A stretch of DNA of 24,838 bases from a virus: IMG/VR virus record IMGVR_UViG_3300005613_000395, positions 1 to 24,838 of that record, one strand, 5' to 3'. Both the position numbers and the translations under genes were made by a program. Below are positions 735-17,868 of the stretch, piece after piece. Every line of letters starts with the position of its first letter. Within the stretch, counting starts at the first letter, position 1. Under the pieces are notes generated by a model that had not been told where the DNA came from, searched no databases, and worked only from the letters and a program-made list of their open reading frames with translations.

Positions 735-770
735 ATAAAAAACCCAAGGACTTTTTTGAATCCTTGGGTT
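735..770 (-). terminator. Attenuator terminator in the ileS leader
   Basis: Read on the minus strand, AACCCAAGGA (770-761) pairs perfectly with TCCTTGGGTT (750-741) around a 10-nt loop. A short U tract (TTTTAT) follows. This is a Rho-independent terminator about 30 nt before the ileS start. Its 5' arm can instead pair with 817-809 upstream, so it is probably conditional. Confidence 0.85.
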
Positions 771-834
771 GAGTTTAGATAATATAATTCACATTATCTT
801 TGGGTTGTCCAAGGATTTAATCTGTGAATTATAA
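735..834 (-). promoter_or_regulatory. Ile-responsive transcription attenuator of ileS (alternative RNA pairings)
   Basis: Three competing pairings are visible on the minus strand. (1) TATAATTCAC (833-824), overlapping the last Ile codons, pairs over 10 bp with GTGAATTATA (792-783), just after the leader-peptide stop. (2) AATCCTTGG (817-809) pairs over 9 bp with CCAAGGATT (767-759), which would be the antiterminator. (3) The terminator is 770-761 with 750-741. Pairings 2 and 3 share bases 767-761 and exclude each other. A ribosome stalled on the Ile codons would open pairing 1 and leave 817-809 free, so ileS is transcribed. A ribosome reaching the stop at 796-794 would cover part of 817-809, so the terminator forms. 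The logic is that of trp or pheST attenuation. The pairings are seen directly; the function is inferred. Confidence 0.8.
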
Positions 835-856
835 TTATGTTTCTTTTCATTTTCAT
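794..856 (-). CDS. ileS leader peptide with four consecutive isoleucines (20 aa)
   Basis: The ORF begins ATG AAA ATG AAA AGA AAC, then reads ATA ATT ATA ATT (Ile x4), then encodes HRLNPWTTQR and stops with TAA. It could start at 856 or at the second ATG at 850. The first ATG sits 4 nt after a TATTTTTG box, the same box-to-start distance as at several other genes here, which favours 856. The peptide is probably unimportant in itself; its translation would sense charged tRNA-Ile. The alternation of ATA and ATT samples both Ile decoding routes: the lysidine-modified CAU anticodon for ATA and the GAU anticodon for ATT. The stop lies at the base of the terminator/antiterminator switch, as expected for a leader peptide. 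Confidence 0.8.
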   Translation of the reverse strand: MKMKRNIIIIHRLNPWTTQR

Positions 857-860
857 TTTA

Positions 861-868
861 CAAAAATA
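861..868 (-). promoter_or_regulatory. Candidate promoter -7 box (TATTTTTG) for the ileS leader
   Basis: TATTTTTG on the minus strand matches the Bacteroidota -7 consensus TAnnTTTG and lies 4 nt before the leader-peptide ATG. No convincing -33 TTTG was found at the usual distance. If it is a promoter, the transcript would start at or very near the ATG, making the leader almost leaderless. Confidence 0.45.
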
Positions 869-3111: not shown

Positions 3112-4065
3112 ATGAGAGAATTATTACTTTGGCAGAAATACAGACCACAGACAATGTATGACATTGTTCTACCTGAAAGAATAAAAAACAATTTCGTGAA
3201 TGGTCTTGATATGAATTACATTTTTCACGGAAGGTATGGTACCGGCAAGACCTCGCTTGCAAGAATTCTCATTGGTAAATACACGAAGGATAAGAATTTT
3301 CTTGAAGTGAACGCATCTTTATACACATCGATAGATATACTCAGAAATGACATTGAATCATTCTGTAGATCAACATCAATATTATATTCAAGTGATCCGA
3401 TGAAATATGTTTTTTTGGATGAGTTTGAAAGAGCATCCGCACAATTCCAAGATGCTTTCAAAGCATTCGTTGAACATTATTCAAAGACAGTGAGGTTCAT
3501 TCTTACAACAAATCACTATGATAAAATATCCGATGGTATCAGATCAAGGTTCAGTTCTGTTAATTTCACTCCCAGTTTAGAAGAGGAGAAGTTGCTTATG
3601 AAGGAATTTTTTCAAAAGATAAGAAACATAACAGAAAAAGAAGATATCGATATATCGGATGATCAACTTGCATCACTCATAAAGAAGCGGTTCCCGGATA
3701 TGCGTTCAGTGATGGTTGCTCTTCAAAAATATAAAATGAGTGGCAATATCGAAGCATATTCAAACTCGAATGACAGTCTAAAAATAGACCTTTATAGAAT
3801 ACTCTTCAATAAGAAGATGAGTTATGATCAGATATATCATTTTTTGATGGACAACTTTGGTGATGAGAGCATTGATCAGGTTTTTCAGCTTCTTTCCCGA
3901 CCATTTGTTGAATTCATGGTAGAAAAAAATCAATCTGTTGATAAGCTTTTCAAGTGCAATAAGATAGTTGCTGAGGCACATTCAAAAATTGAAACAAAGG
4001 TTGATCCTATCATTTTGGCAATGACCTGTATAGGTGAGATGAGAGATGTCTTACAACAATCCTAA
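3112..4065 (+). CDS. Sliding-clamp loader ATPase, T4 gp44-like
   Basis: This AAA+ ATPase would load the sliding clamp onto primer-template DNA at the phage replication fork. The 317 residues match T4 gp44 (319 aa). The protein opens with LLLWQKYRPQT, the usual clamp-loader start. It has a Walker A GRYGTGKT (40-47), Walker B YVFLDE (D103, E104), sensor 1 TTN (N134) and an SRF motif IRSRF with the trans-acting arginine finger at R146. The C-terminal half is helical, as expected for the collar. The Walker B tail is DEFER rather than a DExx-box with C or H, a minor variant. The 3' end overlaps the minus-strand gene 4051-4830 by 15 bp, tail to tail. The family call is secure; the small partner (gp62-like) is not in the window. 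Confidence 0.9.
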   Translation: MRELLLWQKYRPQTMYDIVLPERIKNNFVNGLDMNYIFHGRYGTGKTSLARILIGKYTKDKNFLEVNASLYTSIDILRNDIESFCRSTSILYSSDPMKYVFLDEFERASAQFQDAFKAFVEHYSKTVRFILTTNHYDKISDGIRSRFSSVNFTPSLEEEKLLMKEFFQKIRNITEKEDIDISDDQLASLIKKRFPDMRSVMVALQKYKMSGNIEAYSNSNDSLKIDLYRILFNKKMSYDQIYHFLMDNFGDESIDQVFQLLSRPFVEFMVEKNQSVDKLFKCNKIVAEAHSKIETKVDPIILAMTCIGEMRDVLQQS

Positions 4066-4830
4066 ATATATCAAAAGTGGTGCAAGATAATTTGCATCTA
4101 TCAGATAATATTCATCACACAGGAAAGTTATCTCTTGTCTTTCTGCAAGTTCTATGCTATCCATTTCATATGTTGAAATTAAATCCCTGAATATATCGAT
4201 GTCGGTTTCTCCGTTTGAGAATCTATCGAGTTCTTCTGGAAATTCATCTGCGATATCATCCAATGCTGAGTAAAGGTCATCAACCTGTTCACTCCAAATA
4301 TATTTATATTCTCCTATCGGAAAGAAAATTTCGGCTCCGTCGCTGTGTATGTCTGAATATCCAGAGGCAACCCCATAATTTTTCGTTGTGAATGCACCAT
4401 TTTTTCTCGGTTCAACTTCAAAATACTCATAGAAAACTTCATCAAGAGATTTTTGAGTATCCGATGCTGTGTCTTTTGGTCTTCGGTCTTTTCTTGTGGT
4501 TTTATGGTAAAGGTTCTTTATATTGGTTGTTTGTTTGTTTTGCATGCCTCTGAAAACGGGAAATGATCCGGATCGTTTCAATTCACCCAAGAATGGCCCA
4601 CATTTTGATTCAAGTTCTTTGATGATCATATTCCAATTTTCAAGTGTATAATCAGGATCATTTGTTGAGTTAGCTAAAGACGCTATCACTTTATGTATCA
4701 TGTATCTTGGGACCTTCATATCATTGTAGAGTTCGGGTTTTATTTCATTTGATATTCTTTCACCGTCCGTGAAAATGTCATTTAATTTCAAGGATTCTAA
4801 GAATGATATGTATGTTTTCAATTTTTTCAT
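4051..4830 (-). CDS. ADP-ribosyltransferase-like protein B, possibly packaged (259 aa)
   Basis: This is a paralog of the next gene upstream (4827-5639). Shared blocks in order are FRG (R94), RKDRRPKDT (113-121), FTTK (147-150), IFFPIG, and a final RQEITFLCDEYYLID (E233). The order Arg, Ser/Thr strand, (Q)xE resembles the R-S-E signature of ADP-ribosyltransferases, though the central block here is FTTK rather than STS. A longer reading starts at 4839, but ATG 4830 overlaps the upstream stop as ATGA and gives the N-terminus MKKLKTYISFLES, so I chose 4830. That N-terminus resembles T4 capsid-targeting sequences. T4 Alt is an ADP-ribosyltransferase carried in the head. The family function is an inference; no membrane segment is seen. 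Confidence 0.45.
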   Translation of the reverse strand: MKKLKTYISFLESLKLNDIFTDGERISNEIKPELYNDMKVPRYMIHKVIASLANSTNDPDYTLENWNMIIKELESKCGPFLGELKRSGSFPVFRGMQNKQTTNIKNLYHKTTRKDRRPKDTASDTQKSLDEVFYEYFEVEPRKNGAFTTKNYGVASGYSDIHSDGAEIFFPIGEYKYIWSEQVDDLYSALDDIADEFPEELDRFSNGETDIDIFRDLISTYEMDSIELAERQEITFLCDEYYLIDANYLAPLLIYLGLL

Positions 4831-5639
4831 AATATCCAATAAATAATATCTTCTATATATTTTGGGTCCAATAGGTAATATTCGTCACATATGAATATGG
4901 TTTCCTGATTTTTTACTTCAGAGAAATCAGTTCCTTTCTTATAACTTCTTTCAACATCGAATAGGAATGTGTCATATTCATCCATAAGTTCATCGTGTGC
5001 ATCATCCAATTTTTTTTCATATTCTTCTTTATCTTCAAAATCTTCTGGCACATACCCATGTTTAAATTCTAAATAGTCTATCAGGAAGTCTCTGTTTTCT
5101 TTTGATGAAACATAATAATACCAATCATTTGAATCAATCTCATTAAAAAGGTCGGTTATGGTATCGCTGTAAAAGAAATCGAAATCTCCTATGGGAAAGA
5201 AAATATATGGCCATCCATATTGTTCTGAAGTGGATGTCGATTTTGTTGTGAATATGCCTTCACTTCTCAATCGATATCCGAACTTTTGTTCAAACTTATC
5301 GTCTATTGCTATTTGCACATCAATGTCAGTGTCCTTTGGTCGTCTATCATCTCTTCTTTCTTTTTTGTAAAGTCCTTTATTTCCTTTTCCGAGACCTTGT
5401 GATCCTCTTCGATATCCTCTGAAAAAAAGAGATCTTGTTTTTGGGTTCTGTTCATTTGAAGATATCAACAAGCTCAGAAATGGTTTGCAATCTCTTTCCA
5501 ATATTTCTTTGGTATCATTGAAATCTTGTTGTGGTATTGGGTTCTTGCCTTTCCATATGTGAAATCTATCTTTTCTGATCCATGGAAGTGAATCATTTTC
5601 ATTGAACTCTAAAAACAATTTTATATATGACGGTTTCAT
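4827..5639 (-). CDS. ADP-ribosyltransferase-like protein A, possibly packaged (270 aa)
   Basis: First of a tandem paralogous pair, translationally coupled to the second by an ATGA overlap at 4827-4830. Visible blocks are FFRG (R74), RRDDRRPKDT (95-104), IFTTKSTSTSEQYG (129-141, with an STS at 134-136), YIFFPIGDF, and NQETIFICDEYYLLD with E246. This ordering fits the Arg / STS / (Q)xE layout of R-S-E ADP-ribosyltransferases better than the paralog does. An acidic, charged insertion (about 196-222) separates the last two blocks. The N-terminus MKPSYIKLFLEFNE is similar to the start of other small proteins in the window and to T4 capsid-targeting peptides. The start lies 5 nt after a TATATATAT box shared with the gp25-like gene. 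The gene is certain; ADP-ribosyltransferase activity is a hypothesis. Confidence 0.5.
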   Translation of the reverse strand: MKPSYIKLFLEFNENDSLPWIRKDRFHIWKGKNPIPQQDFNDTKEILERDCKPFLSLLISSNEQNPKTRSLFFRGYRRGSQGLGKGNKGLYKKERRDDRRPKDTDIDVQIAIDDKFEQKFGYRLRSEGIFTTKSTSTSEQYGWPYIFFPIGDFDFFYSDTITDLFNEIDSNDWYYYVSSKENRDFLIDYLEFKHGYVPEDFEDKEEYEKKLDDAHDELMDEYDTFLFDVERSYKKGTDFSEVKNQETIFICDEYYLLDPKYIEDIIYWIL

Positions 5640-11887: not shown

Positions 11888-12691
11888 ATGAAATTATTTA
11901 AATATAAAGACTTTTTAAATGAATCCAATCAGGATATAGATTCTATCTGTAAAAGGTATGGTATAGAAAACTATACCATCAATGGAGATGGATCAATTGA
12001 TGTTGATGGAAATGTTAATTTATATAATAAAGGATTGACTAAACTTCCATTAAAATTCAGAAATGTCAGTGGTCATTTTTATTGTCATAATAAGCGGGGG
12101 AATCAGAATAATAAATTAACTTCTTTAGAAGGAAGTCCAAAAAGTGTTGGTGGTTATTTTTATTGTCATTATAATCAATTAACTTCTTTAGAAGGTGGTC
12201 CAAAAAGTGTTGGTGGTGGTTTTTCTTGTCATTATAATCAATTAACTTCTTTAGAAGGAAGTCCAAAAAGTGTTGGTGGTTATTTTTATTGTTATAATAA
12301 TCAATTAACTTCTTTAGAAGGTGGTCCAAAAAGTGTTGGTGGTGATTTTTATTGTGATAATAATCAATTAACTTCTTTGGAAGGAAGTCCAAAAAGTGTT
12401 GGTGGTGGTTTTTATTGTTCTAGGAATCAAGACCTTATTTCACTTGAAGGATTTCCTTTACACTATGATGAGACCAAAAACTTTTCATGCGAAAACACCA
12501 AACTTAAAGAAGTATATGAACTTTTTGATACGATCGATGCGATCGACTGGATCAACGAGTTTGAAGTTATCAATTGTGACAGTGATGTTCCAGAAGTTTA
12601 TTATATGAAATTATTGGATGTTTGGGAATCACTTGATAAAGAACCGATACCAAAAGAGGAAATAAATCTTAAAAATTATAAATTGATATGA
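11888..12691 (+). CDS. Leucine-rich-repeat-like protein with capsid-targeting-like N-terminus (267 aa)
   Basis: The core is a run of 21-residue repeats of the form NQLTSLEGxPKSVGGxFYC. Five near-perfect copies occupy about residues 77-181, with degenerate copies before (NKGLTKLPLKFRNVSGHFYC) and after (NQDLISLEGFPL). This makes an elongated LRR-like solenoid, a protein-binding scaffold type often seen as accessory genes in large phages. The N-terminus MKLFKYKDFLNES matches the pattern Y-x-(D/E)-F-(L/I)-x-E of T4 internal-protein capsid-targeting peptides, with a possible cleavage after LNE. The C-terminal 65 residues are acidic and mostly helical. The stop overlaps the next start as ATGA. The target of the repeats is unknown. 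Confidence 0.75.
   Translation: MKLFKYKDFLNESNQDIDSICKRYGIENYTINGDGSIDVDGNVNLYNKGLTKLPLKFRNVSGHFYCHNKRGNQNNKLTSLEGSPKSVGGYFYCHYNQLTSLEGGPKSVGGGFSCHYNQLTSLEGSPKSVGGYFYCYNNQLTSLEGGPKSVGGDFYCDNNQLTSLEGSPKSVGGGFYCSRNQDLISLEGFPLHYDETKNFSCENTKLKEVYELFDTIDAIDWINEFEVINCDSDVPEVYYMKLLDVWESLDKEPIPKEEINLKNYKLI
12116..12430 (+). repeat. Five tandem 63-bp coding repeats, alternating as a 126-bp dimer
   Basis: The unit begins ttaacttctttagaagg and recurs at 12116, 12179, 12242, 12305 and 12368. Copies alternate between an AGT-type (SPK) and a GGT-type (GPK) codon at the same place. Odd copies resemble each other, and so do even ones, which suggests recent expansion by 126-bp steps. It lies wholly inside the LRR-like gene. 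Confidence 0.9.
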
Positions 12692-15913: not shown

Positions 15914-16936
15914 ATGGGGAAAATTGCGTTAATATCCGGTGTGACCGGACAGGATGGAAGTTATTTGGCTGAGTTCTTATTATCTAAAGGTTATCAGGTT
16001 CACGGAATAAAAAGAAGAAGTTCAAGTTTCAATACAGAAAGGATCGATCATTTGTATAATGATGTGAATTTCAAACTTCATTATGGTGACCTGACCGATT
16101 CGACCAATATAATAAGAATAATTCAGGAAGTACAGCCTGATGAGATATACAATCTGGCAGCTCAGTCACATGTAAAGGTTTCATTCGAAACACCTGAATA
16201 TACAGCAAATTCTGATGCTCTTGGTGCATTGAGGATATTGGAAGCAATAAGAATTTTGAACTTAGAGAAAAAAACAAGATTCTATCAGGCATCAACATCA
16301 GAGATGTTCGGTAAAGTTCAAGAGGTTCCTCAAAGAGAAACAACTCCATTTTATCCAAGAAGTCCTTATGGTGTTGCAAAGCTTTATGCGCATTGGATCA
16401 CCGTCAATTACAGAGAATCATATGATTTGTTTGCGTGTTCAGGAATTCTTTTCAATCATGAAAGTCCTGTCAGAGGTGAAACATTTGTCACTCGAAAGAT
16501 AACACAGGCGGTTGCAAGGATAAGTCAAGGATCAGATGAAATACTTTATCTTGGCAATCTTGATGCCGAACGCGATTGGGGACATGCGAAAGATTATGTC
16601 AGAGGTATGTGGTTGATGTTGCAACAGGAAAATCCAGATGATTATGTTCTTGCAACCGGTAAAATGATATCTGTCAGAAAATTTGTTGAAATGTCATTCA
16701 AATATATCGGGATCGATATAGAATGGTCTGGTGAGGGTTGTGATGAGATTGGTGTCGATGTGAGTTCAGGAAAGTGTCTTGTAAAAGTTGATCCTAAATA
16801 TTTCAGGCCAACTGAGGTAGATGAGCTATTGGGTGATTCAACAAAGGCAAGACGACAACTTGGTTGGATGCCTGAGTATTCTGTTGAACAGTTGTGTAAA
16901 GAAATGGTGGAAAATGACATTAAAAGATTGAAATGA
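15914..16936 (+). CDS. gmd: GDP-mannose 4,6-dehydratase
   Basis: This enzyme converts GDP-D-mannose to GDP-4-keto-6-deoxy-D-mannose with bound NADP(H), the first step to GDP-L-fucose. The 340 residues are full length for the family. Visible are the nucleotide-binding motif GVTGQDG (9-15), RR at 34-35, STSEMFG (S127, T128, E130) and the catalytic Y152-x3-K156 in SPYGVAK. Also present are [15 protein letters not shown] and the C-terminal [15 protein letters not shown], all hallmarks of GMD. It overlaps the next gene by ATGA, forming a two-gene fucose operon. A phage could use the product to glycosylate its virion or alter the host surface. No glycosyltransferase is visible in this window. Confidence 0.95.
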
Positions 16937-17868
16937 AGATAAAACCTTATTCAAAGATATTTGTTGCTGGTGGTCGTGGAATGGTGGGATCAGCATTGAT
17001 CAGAAAATTAAAGATGTTAGGATTCAAAAACATAGTCAGTCCATCAAGTTCTGAACTTGATCTCACCAATCAAAAAAGAGTCATTGAGTTTTTCTGTTCA
17101 GAGAAATTTGACTTTGTTTTTTTGGCAGCTGCCAAGGTGGGTGGTATATTGGCCAACAGCACCGAAAAGGCAGATTTCATCTATCAGAATATAATGATAC
17201 AGACAAATGTTATCCACTCATCATATCTGAGTGGTGTGAAAAAATTAGTATTCCTTGGTTCGTCCTGTATCTATCCTAAAATGTCACCTCAGCCTATAAA
17301 AGAGGAATATCTTATGACGGGTGAGCTCGAACCAACGAATGATGCTTATGCGATTGCCAAAATATCAGGGATAAAGATGTGCCAATCATACAATGAACAA
17401 TATGGCACTGATTTTATTTCAGTCATGCCTACCAATCTTTACGGACCAAATGATAATTATGATAGCAAGACATCACATGTTCTACCGGCCTTGATAAGGA
17501 AAGTTCACGAAGCTAAAATAAGTGGATCTGATATGATCACCGTTTGGGGGTCAGGCAATCCAAGGAGAGAATTTCTTTATGTCGATGACCTTGCGGATGC
17601 TATTTTACATGTATTTGAAAATTATTCTGGTAATGAGATCATAAATATCGGCACCGGTGTTGACATATCAATAAAAGAACTTGTAGGTATCATTCAACAG
17701 GTCGTTGGATATGAGTGTCGAGTGGTATATGACTCTGACATGCCGGATGGTACTCCAAGAAAACTTCTTGATGTCAGTAAATTGAATGATTTGGGTTGGC
17801 GATACAAGACAGATATTTCAGATGGTATCCGGTCAGCATATGAGGATTTTCTTAGTAGGGAAACTTAA
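16933..17868 (+). CDS. fcl: GDP-L-fucose synthase (epimerase/reductase)
   Basis: The second step: epimerisation and NADPH-dependent reduction of GDP-4-keto-6-deoxymannose to GDP-L-fucose. Its 311 residues show the Rossmann motif GGRGMVG (13-19), AAAKVGGI (65-72), GSSCIYPK (109-116, with the S and C expected at the active site), and Y139-x3-K143 in AYAIAKISG. It also has [12 protein letters not shown] and [12 protein letters not shown]. All key residues are present. Start and stop fit the ATGA overlap with gmd, which implies translational coupling. It ends 10 nt before the metallopeptidase-like gene. Confidence 0.95.

Follow-up and report, generated by a model that had tools for sequence, protein, structure and literature searches.

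A probable isoleucine-codon attenuator before a phage ileS gene, and matched leaders before other synthetase genes and tRNA arrays of huge phages

In Enterobacteria, pheM-pheST, trpL, hisL and ilvL/ivbL are leader-peptide attenuators, and pheST is a synthetase operon. The element described here, located upstream of a phage isoleucyl-tRNA synthetase gene (ileS), is like them in that a leader rich in the sensed amino acid precedes the cognate gene, and in that the alternative antiterminator has one arm in common with the intrinsic terminator. However, it is phage-borne, its pairings follow the order 1:3, 2:4 and 4:5, strand 2 being located inside the leader ORF or at its end, and in the phage family tRNA arrays are further targets, with single leaders that read several amino acids together. 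Outside enterobacteria, too, synthetase genes are described as being under leader-peptide attenuation, which is alike in kind; in the available part of that source it is chromosomal and concerns a single amino acid, and neither phages nor tRNA genes as targets are mentioned there. The T-box likewise senses tRNA charging and controls synthetases, often by termination, but it binds the tRNA directly and without a leader peptide (PMC1262725).

Regarding the phages, huge phages reach 67 tRNAs and 15 synthetases, and among them are Mahaphages of 634, 642 and 735 kb whose hosts were predicted to be Bacteroidetes (PMC7162821). The main text of that paper gives gene lists only, and "attenuat" and "leader" are absent from it. 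It has long been asked why phages have tRNAs and synthetases by the dozen, and the answers given are codon compensation or the replacement of tRNAs cut by host defences. Phage tRNAs replace host tRNAs depleted by tRNA-cleaving defences (PMC10264068, PMC11555353), and the first of these papers does not mention attenuation or leader peptides. Both treat the tRNAs themselves, whereas the leaders described here would induce tRNA expression upon shortage. The mechanism class is known, but a full-text literature search, limited to open-licence papers, did not turn up leader attenuators of phage tRNA or synthetase genes. Neither the control of tRNA genes by leader attenuation nor a single leader reading an array-matched set of amino acids was found in the literature searched.

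The stretch of DNA analysed (the window, 24,838 nucleotides) is a 24.8-kb tailed-phage fragment in which portal, clamp loader, SbcD-like nuclease, DNA polymerase and baseplate wedge proteins were recognised. Its closest kin in the phage collection are LR745206 (634,780 bases; W01, the source of L003), LR756502 (642,428; W02) and LR756501 (735,411; W03), which we infer from their matching sizes to be the largest Mahaphage genomes of PMC7162821. The window IleRS is 73% identical to that of LR745206, and the adjoining gene shows about 70% identity with LR745206 and LR756502 at the DNA level. Judged by the homology of its genes and by its phage core genes, the window belongs to a Mahaphage-type huge phage of Bacteroidota; the host phylum rests on PMC7162821 and on the promoter type.

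All the parts of the locus lie on the minus strand. The upstream gene (956-2233) has its own terminator (908-937), which separates it from the leader. A candidate promoter box, TATTTTTG (861-868), matches the Bacteroidota -7 box TAnnTTTG, without start-site data, and the same box (TATATTTG and variants) is found upstream of most leaders in the relatives. The leader ORF, MKMKRNIIIIHRLNPWTTQR (794-856, from the ORF list and its translation), is kept in relatives; it contains four consecutive Ile codons, ATA ATT ATA ATT (827-838), and ends at a TAA stop (794-796), exactly as an earlier sequence-only reading of this DNA had described. The only uncertain point of the sequence claims is the start of the leader, which may be the ATG at 856 or that at 850. 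Strand 1 (TATAATTCAC, 824-833, Ile/His codons) is the exact complement of strand 3 (GTGAATTATA, 783-792), which comes directly after the stop codon. Strand 2 (AATCCTTGG, 809-817, codons AAT CCT TGG) lies inside the ORF and inside the loop of pairing 1:3; it is the 5' half of the antiterminator and the exact complement of strand 4 (CCAAGGATT, 759-767), and this pairing accounts for the conserved Pro-Trp in the leader. Both pairings, 833-824 with 792-783 and 817-809 with 767-759, had been proposed before and are borne out. Folding and terminator prediction placed an intrinsic terminator at 741-770, with a 6-nt loop and then TTTTATT; the stem first proposed (770-761 with 750-741, plus a T-run) is present but is slightly longer, with 12 bp (770-759:752-741). 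Since strand 4 is common to antiterminator and terminator, the two should exclude each other, as had been claimed, and the masked folds given below agree.

The gene downstream is indeed ileS (2-709), of which the window holds the N-terminal 236 aa before the gene runs off the contig. These 236 residues match TIGR00392 with an E-value of 3.6e-75, and the full-length ileS of contig L001, 97% identical over them, exceeds the curated cut-off of that family. In Firmicutes most synthetase genes are under T-box control, and in several Actinobacteria so is ileS (PMC1262725); one could think that a T-box-like riboswitch, binding tRNA or a metabolite, controls this ileS as well, the short ORF being a by-product. 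We give this explanation almost no credence, because the ORF and the terminator already occupy this region, which, promoter and terminator included, spans only about 120 nt, and because Rfam gives no family at its gathering score anywhere in the window. Neither the gathering nor the E-value mode gave a hit above cut-off, so that the covariance-model match expected of a T-box is lacking; weak Phe_leader and rnk matches fall on the terminator of the upstream gene, and those in the leader region are below cut-off and none of them is a T-box.

The 146-nt leader folds with -33.9 kcal/mol, as compared to -18.1 +/- 3.2 kcal/mol for dinucleotide shuffles (z -5.0, 0/200). None of 300 shuffles equalled pairing 2:4, and about 3 of 300 equalled pairing 1:3. 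As isolated helices, the terminator has -17.5 kcal/mol and the antiterminator -12.2 kcal/mol, and the complete RNA always folds as the terminator. As the finished RNA always prefers the terminator, the control must be kinetic, that is, decided during transcription. Actually, the equilibrium fold of the full-length leader gives no antitermination, and truncated transcripts together with ribosome masks are needed to see the antiterminator. In such masked folds, which are a computed model and not a measurement, an RNA with its 3' end at 758 forms an antiterminator of 8-9 bp when the ribosome is at the first or the fourth Ile codon, and none when the ribosome has left the Ile run behind or stands at the stop; in the latter cases the terminator pairing is computed to start as the next bases emerge. 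This is the stall dependence that folding with a blocked Ile region had been expected to give. However, the antiterminator is a good competitor at 3' end 758 even if no ribosome is present, which counts against the model.

Three features of the sequence are expected of an attenuator of this kind: a terminator between the leader and the structural gene, an antiterminator incompatible with this terminator and set free when a ribosome stalls at the control codons, and a short ORF whose codon run corresponds to the amino acid of the controlled gene. All three are present, the second one only in silico. The comparison with pheM-pheST and trp made in the sequence-only reading is right as to the class but not as to the trp-type pairing chain: the order 1:2, 2:3, 3:4 is not found, and this order is typical of trp without defining the wider class. 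A phage-borne attenuator with an Ile-codon leader acting on IleRS is the best reading, although the Ile-dependent readthrough itself is inferred.

The proposed course of events is as follows. The polymerase would start at the element's own Bacteroidota-type promoter, and a ribosome would translate the leader behind it, leader translation being itself an inference. If charged Ile-tRNA is present, the ribosome would reach the stop and cover strand 2 (817-809), the terminator (770-741) would form and ileS would be off. If charged Ile-tRNA is scarce, the ribosome is supposed to stall at 838-827, opening pairing 1:3 and leaving strand 2 free. Strand 2 could then capture strand 4 (767-759) before the second arm of the terminator is made, and the polymerase would read into ileS. 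Neither the stalling nor the readthrough has a basis other than inference.

Regarding conservation, six further phage ileS genes are preceded by a leader with four consecutive Ile codons and a terminator. Five belong to close relatives: L001 (IleRS 97% identical, leader MKMKRNIIIIHRLNPWIPQR), L002 (79%, MRSTCIIIIHRLTPWIFQW), L003/LR745206 (73%, MNFNTIIIIRYSIPWSIPIG), L137 (69%, MLNRNIIIIRRSIPWYKPIG) and L138 (68%, MNFNSIIIIRKSTPWYKPIG). The loss of the Ile run or of the pairings in relatives would have refuted the proposal; all five keep the Ile codons, the CCTTGG of the Pro-Trp codons, the 1:3 hairpin and a terminator whose 5' arm is able to pair with CCTTGG. In the stems of the close relatives, whose arms were aligned by hand for the covariation count, 97.9% of cells are paired and 9 cells are changed on both sides (0/500 shuffles), whereas controls with a slid partner gave at most 50% paired. 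The compensatory changes predicted for the stems are thus seen, with a double change in 3 of the 9 pairs of strands 1:3 and a change from A-U to G-C/C-G in the terminator stem. The sixth case is the distant 181-kb viral contig G005 (L147; IleRS 41% identical), which has MKTLNTFVNSIIIIPKLPMS and a terminator before ileS, and MTIRFIADNNDNFAQLSVGLSVA and a terminator before a nondiscriminating-type AspRS. Since it carries Shine-Dalgarno-like and sigma70-like sequences, its host is probably of another kind.

The leader is not general among phage ileS genes: the IleRS genes on viral contigs L139-L146 and L148-L157 have no Ile leader, and most IleRS from distant viral contigs are without one. Where short ORFs with homopolymer runs adjoining a terminator were screened (six phage contigs), IIII leaders stood only before ileS, and a DNA pattern for the Ile/Pro-Trp motif matched only the two closest viral contigs and one Jeotgalibacillus site. 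The suggestion that alternating ATA and ATT codons report on two Ile tRNAs had to be dropped as a conserved feature, because only the four Ile codons are kept and the alternation is not (ATA ATA ATA ATT in L003, ATT ATT ATT ATC in G005).

One could still suppose an ordinary constitutive terminator or polarity element, in which the short ORF is an incidental piece of AT-rich, Ile-prone sequence; these genomes are indeed AT-rich (GC 0.29-0.33), and Ile makes up 8.3% of codons in W01. We consider this very improbable, since the preceding gene already has its own terminator, since the Ile run, the Pro-Trp codons and the stems are conserved with compensation, and since in equivalent leaders the codons, which are for Leu, Val, Asn, Asp, Gln, Phe and Ser, match the targets.

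These equivalent leaders belong to related phages of 500-735 kb, where the same device precedes the genes of Leu-, Val-, Asn-, Asp-, Gln- and His-tRNA synthetases and of a PheS-related ligase (SrmL). Three screens, namely for short ORFs adjoining terminators, for antiterminator strands irrespective of amino acid, and for leaders in a search anchored only on tRNA genes, agree on the same arrangement in W01, W02, W03, G002 and G004 (IMG/VR 3300049793_000366). Synthetase targets were named by NCBIfam and tRNAs by ARAGORN. The leaders are MINNNVNILLLPLT and MITTMNTNLLLLADS for Leu, MKTINLNNLVVVNVSV, MNNKSENNLVVVTDIVKMLV and MKHINSNNVVVVNRNPVC for Val, MKSLSINNNNHNRKP and MKTMTINNRNRLTDII for Asn, MRKIIKLKDDRYLWTDCLAD and two others for Asp, and MTTSFQQQQQQQINRTD and others for Gln; MKTLNINTHFHFHFENLELGVH precedes HisRS together with SrmL, and MNTNTTFNFFFSHKMV precedes SrmL alone in W01. 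In W01 and W02 a Gln leader is followed by three or four tRNA-Gln genes and then GlnRS, and in W03 a Leu leader by five tRNA-Leu genes and LeuRS. Eight more contigs with a Gln leader, and one with MKQNAKSLLLLLL, came from scans with the synthetases for Gln, Leu and Asp. Some members have no leader: the LeuRS of G002, the AsnRS of G004 and several W03 arrays lack one, the GluRS of W01, W02 and W03 has none at any gene examined, and the GlnRS of Escherichia phage D6 has no Gln leader. The HisRS leaders of W01 and W02 contain a single His codon only.

Some of these synthetase-like genes are unusual in themselves. The HisRS-like genes with single-His leaders (W01 345085, W02 377658) encode about 210 aa, with LHTYK conserved in the leader and an intervening gene of about 66 aa. 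LeuRS-/ValRS-like proteins of 422-443 aa (W01 L036:4831-6096 and L017:14381-15709; G002 L056) match the family models only partly, as if the CP1 editing domain were missing. W01 has, besides its full-length GluRS, a second, short GluRS-like gene (L017:3338-4192, minus strand, 285 aa), and both are without leader. Copies of SrmL (NF051887, "PheS-related mystery ligase SrmL") lie in W01 (L046, 13821-14897, minus) and in G004 (L187, 15861-16958, plus). The SrmL leader is Phe-rich (FNFFF) in one phage and alternates His and Phe (HFHFHF), together with HisRS, in another, which suggests that SrmL charges phenylalanine. In this way the leaders can predict substrates of unknown enzymes.

Most large tRNA arrays of these phages are also preceded by a matched leader device, and here a leader may combine several amino acids, as HKNFSKSHKWF before tRNAs for His, Phe, Trp and Lys or YNDYCIND before tRNAs for Ile, Cys, Asp, Asn and Tyr. 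The leader MTTNSTHKNFSKSHKWFSNQSF... precedes tRNA His, Phe, His, Phe, Trp and Lys x4; ...SSSRSSS... precedes tRNA Arg, Ser and Ser; MNTITNIASYESYYEEG... precedes tRNAs Glu, Tyr, Ile, Gly and Met; MTMNLTLNVVNITLCNIRPT... precedes tRNAs Asn, Arg, Leu, Val, Ile, Thr and Met; and ...PVNPQPQDQDP... precedes tRNAs Pro and Asp. In W03, MKNMVRKYNDYCINDKLKMLIG stands before tRNAs Ile, Cys, Asp, Asn and Tyr, and MNFRIINMIQEQMQQIQNLIGG... before tRNAs Met, Gln, Ile and Glu. The Glu/Tyr/Gly array of G004 holds in addition two tRNA-Ala genes, and its leader, YIGYIAEGGYEAG, has Ala codons, so that the match follows the gain of a target.

Orthologous leaders were pooled into groups before testing. The fraction of leader residues that fall in the target set averaged 0.361 over 17 groups, as compared to 0.148 (sd 0.026) when leaders were permuted (0/500,000). 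For nine tRNA-array families, exact enumeration found that 1 of 362,880 assignments, the true one, reaches the observed match; the share of array isotypes with a codon in the leader is 98.8% for the own leader and 57.6% for foreign ones. Several single-amino-acid leaders were first spotted through homopolymer runs, their targets being identified afterwards; the leaders before tRNA arrays came to light through structure and position. The pairings are also specific: pairing 2:4 has -10.45 kcal/mol with the own terminator arm and -7.45 kcal/mol with foreign ones (0/200,000 leader swaps), and pairing 1:3 is stronger with its own partner as well (3/200,000 swaps), although multi-amino-acid leaders form it only weakly. 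The middle control codon precedes strand 2 by 15-35 nt, and the stop codon is close to strand 2; at this distance a stalled ribosome leaves strand 2 free, and one at the stop usually would cover it.

Since any ribosome stall ahead of strand 2 would trigger a kinetic antiterminator, the leaders could be general sensors of translation stress (antibiotic, general starvation, host shut-off) whose amino acid composition matters little. This seems improbable to us, because the agreement between leader codons and the downstream tRNA or synthetase far exceeds chance and tracks target gain, as with the Ala codons of G004.

Taking into account the sequence, its conservation, the alternative pairings and the codon-target matching, we hold with high confidence that the window element is a ribosome-mediated transcription attenuator and one of a regulon of matched leaders in Mahaphage-type phages. 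It is not a lone element but one of a set that also governs other synthetases and tRNA arrays. Within such a regulon, most large tRNA arrays and several synthetase genes would be under matched leaders, with feedback supplying just those translation parts that are short. Since matching leaders precede most tRNA arrays and many synthetases, the phages appear to make tRNA parts only at shortage. It is likely, in our opinion, that this is a huge-phage RNA regulon in which leaders read several charged-tRNA supplies and sense and repair shortages, including those caused by anticodon nucleases or other tRNA-cleaving defences, as opposed to constitutive tRNA expression; the benefit to the phage is inferred. 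That an attenuator on a tRNA array would make the replacement of destroyed tRNAs responsive to their loss is speculation. As the leader of each array names the releasing shortage in its codons, the phage genome spells out which charged tRNAs are in short supply, and every leader-array case can be tested individually. Leader composition is moreover a simple computational route to further phage attenuators.

Some minor observations were also made. A tRNA-Ile with anticodon TAT is unusual for bacteria; the arrays of W01 L034 and L035 contain one, which reads ATA directly, plus a tRNA-Ile with GAT. In the window, the plus-strand gene at 11888-12691 encodes a leucine-rich-repeat-like protein with near-identical internal repeats (LTSLEGSPKSVGGYFYCHYNQ). 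A nucleotide-sugar gene pair at 15914-17868 resembles in sequence GDP-mannose 4,6-dehydratase and GDP-fucose synthase, and its first gene matches phrog_540. Finally, two adjacent paralogues of unknown function (4051-5639, minus strand, 262 and 270 aa) have in common a (D)DRRPKDT motif and a similar C-terminal CDEYYL motif.
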